11,674 nt of DNA from an uncultured bacterium (lineage in GTDB: Bacteria > CAIJMQ01): the NCBI GenBank assembly GCA_903821905.1, contig CAIJMQ010000007.1, positions 1 to 11,674 on the forward strand, read 5' to 3'. The first letter of the stretch is position 1; each line of letters starts with the position of its first letter. A program made the translations under genes and the position numbers. The notes below the pieces were generated by a model. That model saw only the letters and a list, made by a program, of their open reading frames with translations. It did not search any database and was not told where the DNA came from. Below, piece by piece: positions 5,184-11,674 of the stretch.

Positions 5184-5248
5184 AATATAAACCTCCTTAT
5201 TTGTTTTTATTTAATTTTTCAATTAATATTTTTCTATTTGAGGGCATC

Positions 5249-5276
5249 ATTATAACAGTATTTTTGAAATTTACAA
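5249..5276 (-). promoter_or_regulatory. sigma-70-type promoter of groES-groEL
   Basis: On the minus strand, -35 TTGTAA (5276-5271) and -10 TATAAT (5254-5249) are 16 nt apart, and a TGn extension gives TGTTATAAT. A start near 5242 would give a leader of about 60 nt that ends with the strong ribosome binding site of groES. No sigma-32-type (CTTGAA/CCCCAT) or CIRCE elements are seen here. Confidence 0.7.
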
Positions 5277-5302
5277 TAAGTGTTTGTAATACTTCCTGTG
5301 TC

Positions 5303-5323
5303 TTTAGAGTAAATTTCTCTAAA
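5303..5323. repeat. inverted repeat upstream of the groES promoter
   Basis: TTTAGAG (5303-5309) and CTCTAAA (5317-5323) form a perfect 7-bp inverted repeat with a 7-nt spacer. It lies about 26 nt beyond the groES -35 element and about 30 nt after the htrA stop. No T tract follows on the minus strand, so it does not look like a terminator. It may be an operator for groES, or coincidence in AT-rich DNA. Confidence 0.35.
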
Positions 5324-5351
5324 TTTATATTTCACATTAAGAATATCTGTT

Positions 5352-6839
5352 TTATTTCACTTGTATTCGAGTTGTAAATCTCCAATGACGCCCCATATAT
5401 GACCTTACACAACTAAATTCCACACTATTCTTCTCTTGTATTTTTTCTATTACTTTTCTGTAGTCGTCAATATTATTAACTGCATATCCGTTTATTTCTG
5501 TAATTAAGTCTCCTGCCTGAAGTTCTGCACGTTCGGCTAAAGAACCAGGTTGGATTTTAGTAATTATCACACCCTTTTGTCCTTTAAGGTCATATTGTCC
5601 AGCCAACTCATCATTGAGTTCTTTTACTTCAAGGCCTAATTTCTCTTGTGATTCTGTCGCGTCTTTTTTCCCTGCATCAGCAGTAAGCGTTTGTTTTTCA
5701 GTAATCTTAACCTTCTTGGAAATTTCCTTATCTCTGCGGAGAACAGTGATTTCCACTTCCGTATCAGGAACCAATCCAGCTATAAACTGCATTAATTGTT
5801 TAGTCGTATCTATCTTATTGGTAATATTTATCTCTTTACCATCTTTATCAAATTGCTTGCCATCAACCTTCAATATTATGTCATTACTGTTAATCCCAGC
5901 TTTATCAGCGGGAGAACCAACCTCTACTTGGCGTACTACAACACCCTTAGTTTGTTTTAATTCAAGGTCCTTAGCAAGCTTTTCATTGAGGTCTTGAATA
6001 CTAACGCCAAGCCATCCTCGTGTAATTTTGCCTTTATCAATTAATTGGTCCATAATTTTTCTAGCCATATTTATTGGAATTGCAAAACCTACTCCCATAC
6101 TCGCACCGCTTTTGGAAAAAATAGCTGTATTTATCCCAATAACTTCTCCATCCAGGTTAACAAGAGGGCCACCGCTGTTTCCTGGATTAATGGAAGCATC
6201 AGTTTGAATAAAATCTTCATACTGAGCAATTCCTATATTACTTCTTCCAACAGCAGAGATGATACCTGCAGTAACTGTATGCTGTAGTCCAAAAGGATTA
6301 CCTATAGCAAGAACCCATTCTCCCACTTTTACCTTATCTGAATCTCCAAGTGTTGCTTTTGGTAAATCTTTTGCATCTATTTTAATTACTGCAACATCTG
6401 TCTCAGGATCCCTACCTTTAATTTCAGCATCAAGTTCTCTTTTATCCGAAAGAATAACTTTAATTTTATCTGCATTTTCTACAACATGGTTGTTTGTTAA
6501 TATGTAACCGTCACTGGTTACAATTACACCGCTTCCAAGTTCTGGTATTTCTCTTTCTTCCGGAGCATTATATTGAGGGAAAAAATCCGGGCCAAAACGT
6601 CGTCTGAGTTCATCAAAAAAAGGATCATTTCCAAAGGGAGATAATCCTTGCTGTGAAACTCCAATTTTTACAGTTGATATAACACTTACTACAGAAGGAT
6701 TGACCTTATCACTTATTGATGAGAAAGCATTTGAAAGTTGTCGGAGTGAATCTAAGTCTTCTGCTTTAATTACGGTTAAAAAAGAAAATAAAAGTATCAA
6801 ACTTATAGAAAATCTTATCAGAAAAAATCTACTTTTCAT
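5352..6839 (-). CDS. htrA: periplasmic serine protease/chaperone of the DegP/HtrA family
   Basis: The 495-residue product starts with a signal peptide (basic MKSRFFLIRF, a hydrophobic stretch to about residue 24, likely cleavage after KA). The mature part would act in the periplasm, degrading or holding misfolded envelope proteins. The trypsin-like domain has the complete triad: His118 in TNNHVV, Asp148 in PETDVAV and Ser222 in GNSGGPL. A Phe-rich activation loop (about 66-95) precedes it, as in DegP/DegQ. Two PDZ domains follow, at about 275-380 (starting at RGWLGVSIQDL) and 400-485 (LGLEVKEL onward). The first carries an insertion around DGKEINITNKID. The ATG is one base after the grpE stop, and its AAAGGAG (6 nt spacing) lies inside the end of grpE, implying translational coupling. 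It is the last gene of the dnaK operon, so the operon links cytoplasmic and periplasmic protein quality control. Confidence 0.95.
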   Translation of the reverse strand: MKSRFFLIRFSISLILLFSFLTVIKAEDLDSLRQLSNAFSSISDKVNPSVVSVISTVKIGVSQQGLSPFGNDPFFDELRRRFGPDFFPQYNAPEEREIPELGSGVIVTSDGYILTNNHVVENADKIKVILSDKRELDAEIKGRDPETDVAVIKIDAKDLPKATLGDSDKVKVGEWVLAIGNPFGLQHTVTAGIISAVGRSNIGIAQYEDFIQTDASINPGNSGGPLVNLDGEVIGINTAIFSKSGASMGVGFAIPINMARKIMDQLIDKGKITRGWLGVSIQDLNEKLAKDLELKQTKGVVVRQVEVGSPADKAGINSNDIILKVDGKQFDKDGKEINITNKIDTTKQLMQFIAGLVPDTEVEITVLRRDKEISKKVKITEKQTLTADAGKKDATESQEKLGLEVKELNDELAGQYDLKGQKGVIITKIQPGSLAERAELQAGDLITEINGYAVNNIDDYRKVIEKIQEKNSVEFSCVRSYMGRHWRFTTRIQVK

Positions 6840-6840
6840 T

Positions 6841-7419
6841 TTATTCTCCTTTCAACATCTTTGGTTCTTCTGTTTTTTCAGAATCGGAAATTTTTACTTT
6901 AGCGGGACGTAAGAGTCTATTATGGAAAGTATATCCCGGCAATATCTCTTCTACCACTATATGCTTATTACTTTTACTTTTCTCCTCCTTGCTATGTTTT
7001 TTATTTACCACTTCCAATGCTTCATGAAGGTTGGGATCATAATTTTTCCCCAAAGCTTCAATTGGTTTAACACCGTGTTGATTCAATAGGTTTTTTAGTT
7101 CTTTGTATATCATCTCTACACCTTGCTTGAGAGTATTATTGGGATTGGAATTGGAATTCTCTATATGGCTAAGTGCTCTCTCAAAATTATCCACTATGCT
7201 TAACAACTGATAAAGAACGTTCTCAAGAGAAAACCTCTTTGTTTCTTCTAATTGTTTCTCGCTTCTTTTACGGTAATTTTCCAGTTCTGCCAATGATCTT
7301 TTCCACTTGTCAATATATTCTTCTTTTTCTTTGGTCAAAGCAGATATCTGGTCATCTTTTTCCTGAACAAGTTCTGTTATTTCTTTTTTTGCTTTACTTT
7401 CAGATTGTGTTTTATCCAT
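6841..7419 (-). CDS. grpE: DnaK nucleotide exchange factor GrpE
   Basis: This 192-residue protein has the GrpE plan. A long charged N-terminal coiled coil (about residues 5-70) includes WKRSLAELENYRKRSEKQ, followed by a helical dimer region (NVLYQLLSIVDNFERAL). A C-terminal beta-wing contains GVKPIEALGKNYDPNLHEAL and ends in EEILPGYTFHNRLLRPAKVKIS. GrpE dimers release ADP from DnaK in the cytoplasm and can act as a heat sensor. The ATG lies 2 nt after the dnaK stop without a good Shine-Dalgarno, so translation probably depends on ribosomes finishing dnaK. The order dnaK-grpE is the reverse of the common grpE-dnaK order, and no dnaJ follows. Confidence 0.97.
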   Translation of the reverse strand: MDKTQSESKAKKEITELVQEKDDQISALTKEKEEYIDKWKRSLAELENYRKRSEKQLEETKRFSLENVLYQLLSIVDNFERALSHIENSNSNPNNTLKQGVEMIYKELKNLLNQHGVKPIEALGKNYDPNLHEALEVVNKKHSKEEKSKSNKHIVVEEILPGYTFHNRLLRPAKVKISDSEKTEEPKMLKGE

Positions 7420-7421
7420 CT

Positions 7422-9359
7422 TTAATTCTCATCTTCAACTTTATAATCTGCATCAACTACATCTTCTCCACCGGTTTTATTGCTACCACGTTGTTTAGAT
7501 TGTCTTGTTCCCTGTCCTGTCTGCTGAGAACCTTGACCTGCATTCCCTTGTCCTTGAGCTGTAGTCTGTTGATAAAGTTCAGAAGAAACCGAATACCAAG
7601 TTTGATTCAAATTTTCCGTAGCTTTATTAATCTCTGTTGTATCATCTTTATCTATGACATCTTTTACCTGCTTTATTGCATCCTCTATTTTTTTCTGTTG
7701 CTCTGGTTTGATTTTATCTTTATTCTCTTTTAGCATTTTTTCTGATTGATAAATGGCAGTATCTGCTTTGTTTCTTGTTTCTGCTTTTTCTTTTTTCTTC
7801 TTATCTTCTTCAGCATAATTTTCTGAATCTTTTATAAGTCGCTCTTTCTCATTTTCAGAAAGTCCGCCCGAAGCTTGTATCTTTATACTTTGCTCTTTAC
7901 CTGTAGCTCTATCTTTTGCAGAAACATTTAATATACCGTTTGCATCTATATCAAATGTAACTTCAACTTGTGGTATTCCTCTTGGGGCAGGAGGTATACC
8001 AACAAGTTGGAATCTGCCTATAGTTTTATTGTCCATAGCCATTTCTCTTTCACCTTGTAATACATGAACTTCTACAGATGTCTGGCTATCTACTGCTGTA
8101 GTAAAAATTTCACTCTTTCTTGTCGGAATAGTTGTATTTCTTTGAATAAGAGGGGTCCTTACACCACCCAAAGTTTCTATACCAAGAGTCAGAGGAGTTA
8201 CATCTAATAGTAAAATATCTTTTACTTCACCTTTTAGAACACCTGCTTGAATAGCTGCCCCTACGGCTACTACTTCATCGGGATTAACTCCTTTATGTGG
8301 TTCTCTTTTAAATAGGTTCTTTACCACCTCTTGAACCTTTGGCATTCTTGTTTGTCCACCAACGAGAATTACTTCATTTATATCTTCAGGTTTTAATTTA
8401 GCATCTGATAATGCCCGTTTACATGGTGCAATTGATTTTTCTATAAGGTCATCTACCAATTTCTCTAATTGTGCACGTGTAAGTTTAATATTGAAGTGTT
8501 TGGGACCGGTAGCATCTGCTGTAATGAATGGCAGATTTATTTCTGTCTCTAAAGAAGTAGATAATTCACACTTAGCTTTTTCTGCTGCTTCTTTTAATCT
8601 TTGCAGTGCCATAGGGTCTTTACGTAGATCTATACCATTGTTTTTCTTGAATTCATTAGCTAACCAATCCATAATTTTCTGATCAAAGTTATCTCCTCCT
8701 AAATGAGTATCACCATTAGTTGCTTTTACTTCAAAAACTCCTTCTCCTATTTCAAGAATGGAAACATCAAATGTTCCTCCTCCCAGGTCATATACAGCTA
8801 TAGTTTCTGCTTTTTTCTTATCTAAACCATAGGCTAACGAAGCTGCTGTAGGTTCATTTATTATTCTTAATACTTCTAATCCCGCAATCTTTCCAGCATC
8901 TTTAGTTGCCTGTCTCTGGGAATCGTTGAAATAAGCTGGCACCGTGATTACTGCCTGGGTAACTTTTTCGCCGAGATAACTTTCAGCGTCTTGTTTAAGT
9001 TTTTGAAGTATCATCGCAGAGATTTCTGCAGGTTTATATTGTTCACCATTAAGAATTGCCACTGCATTGCCATCAGTATCTTTTTCTACCTTATAACCTA
9101 CAATATCAATCTCTTTGGGAACTTCAGTGTATTTTCTTCCCATAAATCTTTTTATTGAGGTAATAGTGTTTTCCGGATTGATAATTGCCTGTCTTTTTGC
9201 TGAAGTTCCTACAAGTCTTTCTCCCGATTTGGTAATTGCAACTACAGACGGTGTAGTTCTTCCGCCTTCCACATTGGAAATTACTGTTGGCTTTCCACCT
9301 TCCATAATTGCCATACACGAATTTGTCGTTCCTAAATCTATTCCAATTACTTTTGACAT
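7422..9359 (-). CDS. dnaK: chaperone DnaK (Hsp70)
   Basis: The 645-residue product is a complete Hsp70. The ATPase domain shows GIDLGTTNS (6-14), Lys70 in [19 protein letters not shown] (167-180), [11 protein letters not shown] (190-200), [10 protein letters not shown] (331-340) and [16 protein letters not shown]. The conserved linker and start of the substrate-binding domain follow ([13 protein letters not shown], from 381), then the lid and a Gln/Gly-rich low-complexity stretch (about 598-630). It ends in [13 protein letters not shown], close to the usual EEVVDADY-type terminus. The insert at about 80-105 is typical of Gram-negative DnaK. It binds hydrophobic segments in unfolded cytoplasmic proteins in an ATP cycle with GrpE and a DnaJ not encoded here. 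The start has AAAGGAGG with 10 nt spacing. It is the first gene of the dnaK-grpE-htrA operon, behind a sigma-54-type promoter at 9402-9418. Confidence 0.98.
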
Positions 9360-9401
9360 AAGATTCTAGCCTCCTTTCAAAAAACTTTTACATAAATAAT
9401 A

Positions 9402-9418
9402 TGCAATATCTATGCCAA
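9402..9418 (-). promoter_or_regulatory. sigma-54 (-24/-12) promoter of dnaK-grpE-htrA
   Basis: The minus strand reads TTGGCATAGATATTGCA. Against the consensus YTGGCACGNNNNTTGCW it matches every defined position except the CG pair after TGGCA. The GG and GC doublets are exactly 10 nt apart, the strict requirement of sigma-54. The predicted start is near 9391, giving a leader of about 32 nt that contains the dnaK ribosome binding site. The next two genes upstream include a sigma-54 activator. No equally good sigma-70 or sigma-32 promoter or CIRCE element was found in the 248-nt gap. Assignment is by sequence match only. Confidence 0.65.
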
Positions 9419-9504
9419 ATTGAGTATGTTTTACTTGGAATGTAATACCTGAAGACAATATACTCCAAAATAAAACTTACTGTTTTTATCTCAACTTAGC
9501 TTAA

Positions 9505-9562
9505 TGAGACAATCTGACACAACTTTTATTACTTGACTGACATACAGGGATTTTATGTCTCA
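9505..9562. promoter_or_regulatory. candidate upstream activator sites for the dnaK promoter
   Basis: TGAGACA (9505-9511) and TGTCTCA (9556-9562) are perfect inverted copies with centres 51 bp apart. Between them lie two direct copies of CTGACA (9514-9519, 9537-9542). The second contributes to a perfect dyad GACATA-N9-TATGTC (9539-9559). All lie about 115-170 nt before the predicted sigma-54 start, the usual distance for enhancer sites of NtrC-type activators. No known binding motif is matched, so this is inference from symmetry and position. Confidence 0.35.
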
Positions 9563-9607
9563 AAACGTTTTAAAAGCAGGGTTTTAATATGAATAACTTT
9601 GATATTT

Positions 9608-10642
9608 TTAATTAATACTATTTGCCATGACATATATCGTTTTGCTCCCATCTTTCAAAGTTGCTGAGACCATTTTGGCCTGAAGTGTATAATAAGTAGT
9701 GTTTGAATTTACTTTCTTCTCTGCAAAGGTAGGTTGGAATTCAAGTTCCAGTATTAAATTTTTGTAATTTTCTCTTACCATCTTTGCCTTATTCAAAGAA
9801 AAAGGAATAGAAGTAGGCATATTATCGAATTTTATTAACCACTGTTCTGTCTTCTCAAAATCTGATTTTTCAAACATTTCCATATAATAATCCCCGAAAT
9901 TTAATTTTCTAATATAATAAAACCATTCTTTTTCTCCTTGGGGAAATTGAGAAGGTGGGAATATTAATGGAAAATTCTTTTTCTCTATATCATATTTATC
10001 TAACGAAAAATTAAGGCACGCTATGTCTTCTTCTATACGAAGATTATTTTCTTCAATTTTCCATTCTTGGACAAAAGGTGGGACTGTAGAGGGAACAGGT
10101 GAAGATAAAGCATCATGTACAAAACGTGTCTCAAAGAGCATCATTGTATTTTGGAATTCCTGTAGCCAAGCAACTGGTATTTTAACGTATTTAGTTGATA
10201 AGGTTGTTCTCTGAACTTTTGTTTCTTCTATATGTTTATAAGATTTTGCTATATTAAGGCCTTTATTTATGTCATTATCATCAGGGGTATATAAAAATTC
10301 TATTTTAAAAACCGTGTTCTTAAATTTCTGTTCGTTATTTATATCATTTTTAATATTTCCTTCTATCCTTCTTTCATAGACTCCCTTTATATCATTTACC
10401 CTCTTTTGATGTTCTTCCTTTGATTCAAATTCTTCTATATCAGGTAAAGGAGGTATATAGGTTTTTATTCTTTCCTGTCTGGGAATTTCCTGATAAGTAT
10501 AGAATGCTTCCCATATCCCTTTTAACTGTTTTGCGTCAGTAATTGTTATTCTGTCTGTTTCTTCTTTTGAAAATAAGTTAATAGACAGTATTAATAAAAA
10601 TAATACGCTAAGGATAAAATATCTTTTAAAGGTTATCTTCAT
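9608..10642 (-). CDS. predicted secreted protein, function unknown
   Basis: I do not recognise this 344-residue protein. It has a clear N-terminal signal peptide (MKITFKRYF, then a hydrophobic core to about residue 23, and a likely cleavage site near FSKEE). There is no lipobox cysteine and no further membrane helix, so a soluble periplasmic or exported protein is expected. The mature part is rich in Glu, Lys, aromatic residues and predicted beta strands. A segment at about 67-95 (PDIEEFESKEEHQKRV, then an ER-rich stretch) looks like a short helical charged motif. Residues 180-195 are Pro/Ser-rich. There are no catalytic motifs. It starts 8 nt after GGAGGG, and only 5 nt separate it from the stop of the sigma-54 regulator gene. 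The two are therefore almost certainly one operon, and it may be a sensor-side or target partner of that regulator. No terminator is seen between it and dnaK. Confidence 0.8.
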   Translation of the reverse strand: MKITFKRYFILSVLFLLILSINLFSKEETDRITITDAKQLKGIWEAFYTYQEIPRQERIKTYIPPLPDIEEFESKEEHQKRVNDIKGVYERRIEGNIKNDINNEQKFKNTVFKIEFLYTPDDNDINKGLNIAKSYKHIEETKVQRTTLSTKYVKIPVAWLQEFQNTMMLFETRFVHDALSSPVPSTVPPFVQEWKIEENNLRIEEDIACLNFSLDKYDIEKKNFPLIFPPSQFPQGEKEWFYYIRKLNFGDYYMEMFEKSDFEKTEQWLIKFDNMPTSIPFSLNKAKMVRENYKNLILELEFQPTFAEKKVNSNTTYYTLQAKMVSATLKDGSKTIYVMANSIN

Positions 10643-10647
10643 TCTTA

Positions 10648-11674
10648 TTACCCTCCGATTGAATGGGTTGATAATTTTCTATGAAGTGTACGTCTACTAA
10701 TTCCCAGCATTTCAGCAGCTTTTGATTTGTTACCCCCAGCTTTTTTTAAAGCGTGGCTTATAACTAATTTCTCAACTTCGTCAAGAGATGCCATACCTTT
10801 TATATTTATACTTTCTTCAGTAGCTTTCTCAACTGCAACTCCCCTAACATCTAAAGACAATTCTTTAACACCAAGGATTTCTTTACGTGAAAAAACTACC
10901 ATGGACTCAATAGCATTCTTTAGTTCTCTTACATTACCATACCAATCATAGTTTTGCAATAGAATAAGAGCTTTTGATGATATCCCTTTTATCTTTTTTT
11001 TATTAGCTTTATTCGATTCTTTTAGAAAATGATGGACTAATAATGGGATATCTTCTCTGCGTTCCCTTAAAGGTGGCACTTCAATTTTTACTACATTAAG
11101 TCTCCAGTAAAGATCTTTTCTGAATTTATTTTCTTTGACCAGTTTTTCTAAATCTTGATTAGTGGCTGCAATAATTCTCGTATCTATCGCAATTGTCTTG
11201 GCCCCACCTACTCTTTCAAACTGTCTTTCTTCTAGAACTCTCAAAAGTTTAACTTGTACTGATGGAGATATTTCACTAACTTCATCTAAAAAAAGCGTAC
11301 CACTATTGGCTAACTCAAATCTACCTTGTCTTGATTCTATAGCACCTGTAAATGCTCCTTTTTCATGGCCAAAAAGTTCTGATTCCAAAACGCCTTTAGA
11401 AAGAGTAGAACACTGGACTGCTATAAAATCTTTATCTTTACGGTCACTTTGATGATGTATTGCCTTTGCAATCAATTCCTTCCCTGTTCCTGATTCTCCT
11501 TGAATGAGAACGGTAGCTCTTGTAGATGCTACTTGTGAAATCATATTAAAAATCTGTCTCATTTTTCTTGATTGACCAATTATATTCTCGAATGAATAAC
11601 GTTCATTAATTCCTTTTTTCAATAACTCATAGTCTTCTTTAAGTTTTCTATAAGAAAGGGCTCTTTCTATAACT
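10648..11674 (-). CDS. sigma-54-dependent NtrC-family response regulator, 5' partial
   Basis: The frame stays open to the right edge of the window, so the gene is cut. A TTG at 11622 would be a possible start, but the 17 codons before it read VIERALSYRKLKEDYEL. That is the helical linker typically found between receiver and AAA+ domains of NtrC-type regulators, and no start codon is needed there. The receiver itself lies outside the window. The AAA+ domain begins at YSFENIIGQS and shows Walker A GESGTGKE, the sigma-54 contact loop GAFTGA, Walker B TLFLDE, the LLRVLEERQFERVGG segment, FRKDLYWRLNV with the arginine fingers, and sensor II WYGNVREL. The last 45 residues form a Fis-type helix-turn-helix (GGNKSKAAEMLGISRRTLHRKL). 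It would open sigma-54 promoters by ATP hydrolysis. It is co-transcribed with the secreted-protein gene and lies upstream of the sigma-54-type dnaK promoter. Its cognate kinase is not in view. Confidence 0.93.
   Translation of the reverse strand, partial: VIERALSYRKLKEDYELLKKGINERYSFENIIGQSRKMRQIFNMISQVASTRATVLIQGESGTGKELIAKAIHHQSDRKDKDFIAVQCSTLSKGVLESELFGHEKGAFTGAIESRQGRFELANSGTLFLDEVSEISPSVQVKLLRVLEERQFERVGGAKTIAIDTRIIAATNQDLEKLVKENKFRKDLYWRLNVVKIEVPPLRERREDIPLLVHHFLKESNKANKKKIKGISSKALILLQNYDWYGNVRELKNAIESMVVFSRKEILGVKELSLDVRGVAVEKATEESINIKGMASLDEVEKLVISHALKKAGGNKSKAAEMLGISRRTLHRKLSTHSIGG

Follow-up and report, generated by a model that had tools for sequence, protein, structure and literature searches.

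The window, which is the whole stretch of DNA analyzed here, is an entire contig of 11,674 bp (contig C7 of assembly G000) from an assembly of 1.30 Mb that is 84% complete. On the minus strand, the gene order is a sigma-54 activator, a 344-aa open reading frame (ORF), a 248-bp gap, dnaK, grpE, htrA, groES, groEL, and glmU-like and glmM-like genes. Pfam matches back the names of the activator, dnaK, grpE, and htrA, while groES, groEL, and the glmU-like and glmM-like genes were named by reading their sequences. For the region upstream of dnaK, we compared this genome with three others of the same family (G001 to G003) and two from another family of the class (G004 and G005). The features considered are as follows.

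10648 to 11673, minus strand: sigma-54 activator and candidate regulator, an AAA+ protein with a GAFTGA motif and a Fis-type helix-turn-helix (HTH) (Pfam and motifs)
9547 to 9561, minus strand: promoter-distal enhancer-like box, GAGACATAAAATCCC, conserved in six genomes and weakest in G004 and G005
9506 to 9520, minus strand: promoter-proximal enhancer-like box, GTGTCAGATTGTCTC, 88 bp from the -24 element and conserved in six genomes
9402 to 9417, minus strand: -24/-12 (sigma-54) promoter of dnaK, TGGCATAGATATTGCA, an exact match that is conserved in G001 to G005
7422 to 9359, minus strand: dnaK, 645 aa (Pfam HSP70)
6841 to 7419, minus strand: grpE, 192 aa (Pfam GrpE)
5352 to 6839, minus strand: htrA/degP-like serine protease with PDZ domains, 495 aa (Pfam Trypsin_2 and PDZ)

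This dnaK gene gave the single full DnaK match in the assembly. The intergenic gaps are 2 bp between dnaK and grpE and 1 bp between grpE and htrA, with all three genes on the same strand, which bears out the dnaK-grpE-htrA operon claimed in a preliminary description of this DNA. In G005, the order is dnaK-grpE-htrA-clpB-groES-groEL, and one promoter may drive the whole dnaK-to-groEL set there. A sigma-54 promoter for groESL was rejected for the genome studied here, where groES instead has its own sigma-70-type promoter (TTGTAA-N16-TATAAT, window positions 5184 to 5351) that is conserved in G002. The 344-aa ORF between the activator and dnaK (9608 to 10642, minus strand) has a signal-peptide-like start and is without a Pfam match; it occupies this position in this genome only and is missing there in G001 to G003.

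The preliminary description had placed a near-consensus sigma-54 element at a fitting distance from the dnaK ribosome binding site, and we found an exact one. The promoter element, which starts 58 bp upstream of the dnaK start codon (ATG at 9359) and is followed, ahead of this codon, by an AAGGAGG ribosome site, has strict GG-N10-GC spacing (GG at 9416-9415, ten bases, and GC at 9404-9403) within the pattern TGGCAY-N6-TGCW; the transcript start is predicted to lie near 9391. It occurs once in the window and in 0 of 200 shuffles. The preliminary description had also proposed looking for the element in relatives and for rpoN in the genome, and both were found: the promoter reads TGGCATAAACTTTGCG in G001 and G002, TGGCACAAACTTTGCA in G003, and TGGCATGCTATTTGAT in G004 and G005, where the -12 pair is GA rather than GC (a GG-N10-GA variant), and the genome encodes RpoN (PF00309, E = 4.3e-14). 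Across the whole genome, TGGCN7TTGCW gave 23 matches, compared to 5 for the reversed control. Most of the strict -24/-12 matches fall within ORFs, the clearly intergenic ones being limited to three, at dnaK, at a pilin-like gene, and at one other locus. Of the two away from dnaK (L019 and L024), one is upstream of a type-IV-pilin-like gene and the other of an ORF of 248 aa that looks secreted.

The preponderance of strict matches inside genes could be taken to mean that the match at dnaK is a chance resemblance without function. We consider this very improbable, since the element is in the same place in five relatives and is found in many other phyla, and the opposite strand gives no match of equal strength. 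A weight matrix for -24/-12 promoters, built by hand, was applied to 105 dnaK upstream regions; 31 of them, including six from the class itself, reached the cut-off of at least 12.5, while no opposite strand did so (highest score, 11.2). The positives also cluster on the DnaK tree, requiring 11 changes versus 25.5 in shuffles.

The preliminary description had seen no HrcA/CIRCE or sigma-32 control at this locus, and our searches agree. HrcA was not found in any of eight genomes (this one and seven others), a search of the window for CIRCE that tolerated up to three mismatches found none, and no RpoH-sized sigma factor (about 285 aa) was found among the Sigma70_r2 matches of the class, which, judged by open-frame size, are either 436 to 482 aa (RpoD-sized) or at most 240 aa. 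Because this genome is incomplete, the case for HrcA and RpoH being absent depends mainly on the relatives. For model bacteria, it is fair to say, as that description did, that other systems usually control dnaK, although sigma-54 promoters at dnaK operons have precedent in Chlamydia and in predictions for Bacteroidota and Planctomycetota.

Cells usually require some DnaK at all times, and this constant need would fit a sigma-54 promoter that is merely secondary and inducible at dnaK, as would a sigma-70-like site matching at 9 of 12 positions at 9494-9467. Such an arrangement has precedent (PMC7482065, PMC8762339). However, sigma-70-like sites are no more frequent here than in shuffles, and no conserved -35/-10 pair stands out among the six aligned dnaK upstream regions, so we regard a purely secondary role as quite unlikely. 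As regards induction, it would be compatible with the explanation that we favor, and a weak housekeeping promoter may be present at dnaK as well.

Alignment of the six dnaK upstream regions revealed four conserved blocks, which are two 15-bp boxes, the -24/-12 element, and the ribosome site; the -24/-12 elements of G004 and G005 were misplaced by the aligner, and their position was taken from a separate comparison of upstream regions. The boxes are near GTGTCAAATAGTCCC. In each of the six genomes, their starts are exactly 41 bp (about four helical turns) apart; the spacing between the promoter and the nearer box, by contrast, varies from 51 to 145 bp. Enhancer-like sites at a variable distance upstream, which we looked for in assessing a sigma-54 promoter, are thus present as a pair. 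A looping sigma-54 activator predicts just this combination of a fixed box pair, a fixed promoter, and a variable distance between the two, which is not expected of a repressor operator. In G001, G002, and G003 (L139, L136, and L137), the spacer between the boxes and the promoter is longer and contains AT-rich TATAGTTTATGGTTGATAG-like repeats. The box pair, the truncation of the activator by the contig end, and the 344-aa ORF before dnaK make the picture fuller than the one first described. In the class itself, the degenerate box GNGNCANNNNGTCNC showed no genome-wide enrichment, and among the box sites outside the dnaK locus, those examined were not near any strong -24/-12 element, so no wider regulon can be drawn in this lineage.

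The sigma-54 activator was confirmed to lie upstream of dnaK on the same strand, at 1.29 kb. It contains a Walker A motif and GAFTGA, and the region of its N-terminal receiver domain is cut off by the contig end. Its orthologs in G001, G002, and G003 are full length (443 to 444 aa), 80 to 82% identical, and directly upstream of dnaK. In the G002 ortholog, a receiver domain (Pfam), an AAA+ domain with GAFTGA, and a Fis-type HTH are all present, the window copy having the AAA+ domain and the HTH; this receiver domain identifies the regulator as an NtrC-type response regulator. The activator ortholog beside dnaK in relatives, the conservation of the element at dnaK, and the presence of rpoN together support the sigma-54 reading of the operon.

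In a sister family, the regulator ortholog is unlinked to dnaK and lies in the order purC, a DUF3108-like gene, a histidine kinase gene, the regulator gene, and a gene for a STAS protein (the purC and DUF3108 labels come from reading the sequences). The orthologous kinase is encoded in this genome on contig C101 (L287, 2641 to 3840) and in family relatives in L288 and L289. None of these kinase genes is followed by the regulator gene, and each follows the same DUF3108-like gene, with purC also present in L287. The simplest reading of these gene orders is that the regulator gene came to adjoin dnaK in this family and the kinase gene stayed in place. The soluble histidine kinase encoded in L287 is probably the regulator's kinase. 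The STAS-domain gene directly after the regulator gene in the sister family (L208, 5069 to 5539; L209, 4269 to 4733) suggests a partner-switching input. In family relatives (L207, L139, and L137), the regulator gene is preceded by mlaE/mlaF/mlaD-like lipid-transport genes and a phosphodiesterase gene, neighbors that hint at an envelope link.

Three further sigma-54 activators are encoded in this genome, for a total of four with strong Sigma54_activat matches, and sigma-54 could drive dnaK with another of these activators at the boxes. The neighboring regulator would then serve other genes, for example, envelope genes, and would be beside dnaK by chance or history, as its mla-like and phosphodiesterase neighbors in family relatives and its separation from dnaK in the sister family could indicate. 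On the other hand, the regulator gene is the immediate neighbor of dnaK in three family genomes, the kinase co-occurs with the box across phyla, and a related regulator is divergent from an hsp20-dnaK operon in L066. On balance, we find it unlikely that another activator acts at the boxes.

Beyond the class, the box generalizes to the palindrome GNGACA-N3-TGTCNC. When up to one mismatch is allowed, 13 of 30 promoter positives have it upstream of the promoter, versus 0.1 expected; since the motif was itself suggested by some of these sequences, the comparison is partly circular. The kinase was not used in defining the box motif. A profile of its N terminus (alignment A1) was searched in 80 genomes, with presence taken as E < 1e-13, and the kinase was present in 30 of them, comprising genomes of the class itself, Kiritimatiellota, Lentisphaerota, and Verrucomicrobiota, one Omnitrophota genome, a few loci labeled only as uncultured bacteria, and G018. 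At dnaK, the box was found with no more than one mismatch in 17 of the 30 kinase-positive genomes versus 2 of the 50 others (Fisher P = 1.3e-7), and with two mismatches in 25 of 30 versus 5 of 50 (P = 3.5e-11), with both P values being inflated by shared ancestry. One of the two box-positive exceptions, G067, has a more diverged kinase-regulator pair.

In ten genomes of the kinase/box type, the perfect palindrome occurs in 16 places, 15 of which were examined. Five of these lie 91 to 118 bp from a correctly oriented -24/-12 element scoring at least 12.9, four before dnaK and one before hsp20; the four dnaK sites had helped suggest the motif, and the hsp20 site had not. The remaining 10 are located within ORFs, with a nearby -24/-12 match, itself weak (9.6), at just one of them. 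Since the palindromes beside a good promoter precede only dnaK or hsp20, this genome-wide search, made from sequence only, returned heat shock genes.

When the G002 regulator was used as a query against 15 genomes, many of the kinase-positive ones had one best match of 48 to 51% identity over the full length, set apart from the next match by scores of 468 versus 358 bits in G060 and 476 versus 340 bits in G061. The kinase gene directly adjoins the regulator gene in G060 to G063, G065, and G070, as it does in the sister family. This adjacency occurs outside the class in Kiritimatiellota and Lentisphaerota, where the dnaK upstream regions have a -24/-12 element and GNGACA-N3-TGTCNC. In addition to the 31 positive dnaK regions, hsp20-dnaK operons have -24/-12 elements ahead of hsp20 in L077 (score, 19.6) and L066 (13.0), with weaker elements in G015 and G012. 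The regulator of L066 (AUK196, 782 to 2813) is a 45% identical receiver-type protein encoded divergently from the sigma-54 hsp20-dnaK operon, with GACA/TGTC repeats between the two.

Our preferred explanation, to which we assign a probability of roughly 70%, is that sigma-54 RNA polymerase drives dnaK-grpE-htrA and is gated by the NtrC-type regulator at the two boxes. For regulator binding, phosphotransfer, and the signal, we infer the following sequence of events. The polymerase would sit in a closed complex at the dnaK -24/-12 element until a signal, presumably misfolding or envelope stress, activates the soluble kinase; envelope or folding stress is suggested as a possible signal by htrA in the operon and by the mla-like genes beside the regulator in relatives. 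The kinase would phosphorylate the regulator (the ortholog of the gene at 10648 to 11673), which would then bind the two boxes about 90 to 145 bp upstream of the promoter, loop the DNA, hydrolyze ATP, and remodel the polymerase to open the promoter. This combination of kinase, regulator, box, and promoter is also predicted to act on dnaK, and in one or more cases on hsp20, in Kiritimatiellota, Lentisphaerota, and Verrucomicrobiota. More tentatively, at somewhat less than even odds, a dedicated sigma-54 two-component system could be the main heat shock regulator of dnaK and hsp20 in these three phyla and in this lineage, replacing sigma-32 or HrcA. If the proposed gating is correct, this heat shock circuit would place an ATP-gated promoter before a gene whose constant expression is usually regarded as necessary, and Hsp70 supply would be gated by a phosphorylation signal rather than through a repressor or sigma factor titrated by chaperones. 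This raises the question of which signal the kinase senses.

The proposed system resembles NtrB-NtrC, in which a soluble kinase and a receiver-AAA+-Fis regulator act with paired upstream enhancers and a -24/-12 promoter, all of which are matched here; it differs in having a general chaperone operon as its target and in its box sequence. HsfB-HsfA of Myxococcus xanthus is reportedly a two-component system with an NtrC-like regulator for the heat shock gene lonD and, by this description, is alike in placing such a system at a heat shock gene and different in the gene targeted. In Chlamydia, there is also a sigma-54 promoter before the dnaK operon, and sigma-54 activation there relies on a kinase and an NtrC-type regulator, as is proposed here, but HrcA, CIRCE, and a housekeeping promoter, none of which were found here, are retained there (PMC7482065, PMC8762339). 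The conserved enhancer-like box pair upstream of dnaK is a further difference and a feature of the present lineage. A 2025 survey found sigma-54 promoters to be enriched, by computation, before chaperone genes in Bacteroidota and Planctomycetota, with predictions before dnaK, grpE, groES, groEL, and hsp20 (PMC12316311); its evidence is computational and from other phyla, and its passages on these genes name no enhancer box or cognate regulator for them. Its reference 80, cited there for sigma-54-dependent grpE in Bacteroides, is a Blattabacterium genome paper and apparently not an experimental proof.

In the open-access literature, we found no paper on the box or the kinase-regulator pair as a heat shock system and nothing closer than the systems above. 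The sigma-54 link to dnaK as such is already known; the new elements are a lineage lacking HrcA, the box pair, and the candidate two-component system. Control of Hsp70 in most non-model bacteria has been little tested, and the recurrence of promoter, enhancer sequence, response regulator, and kinase in several phyla makes the proposal testable in cultured Kiritimatiellota or Verrucomicrobiota. In Kryptonia and some other genomes (L107, L109, L039, and L028), a strong -24/-12 element precedes dnaK without the box, and a different activator probably acts at these loci.
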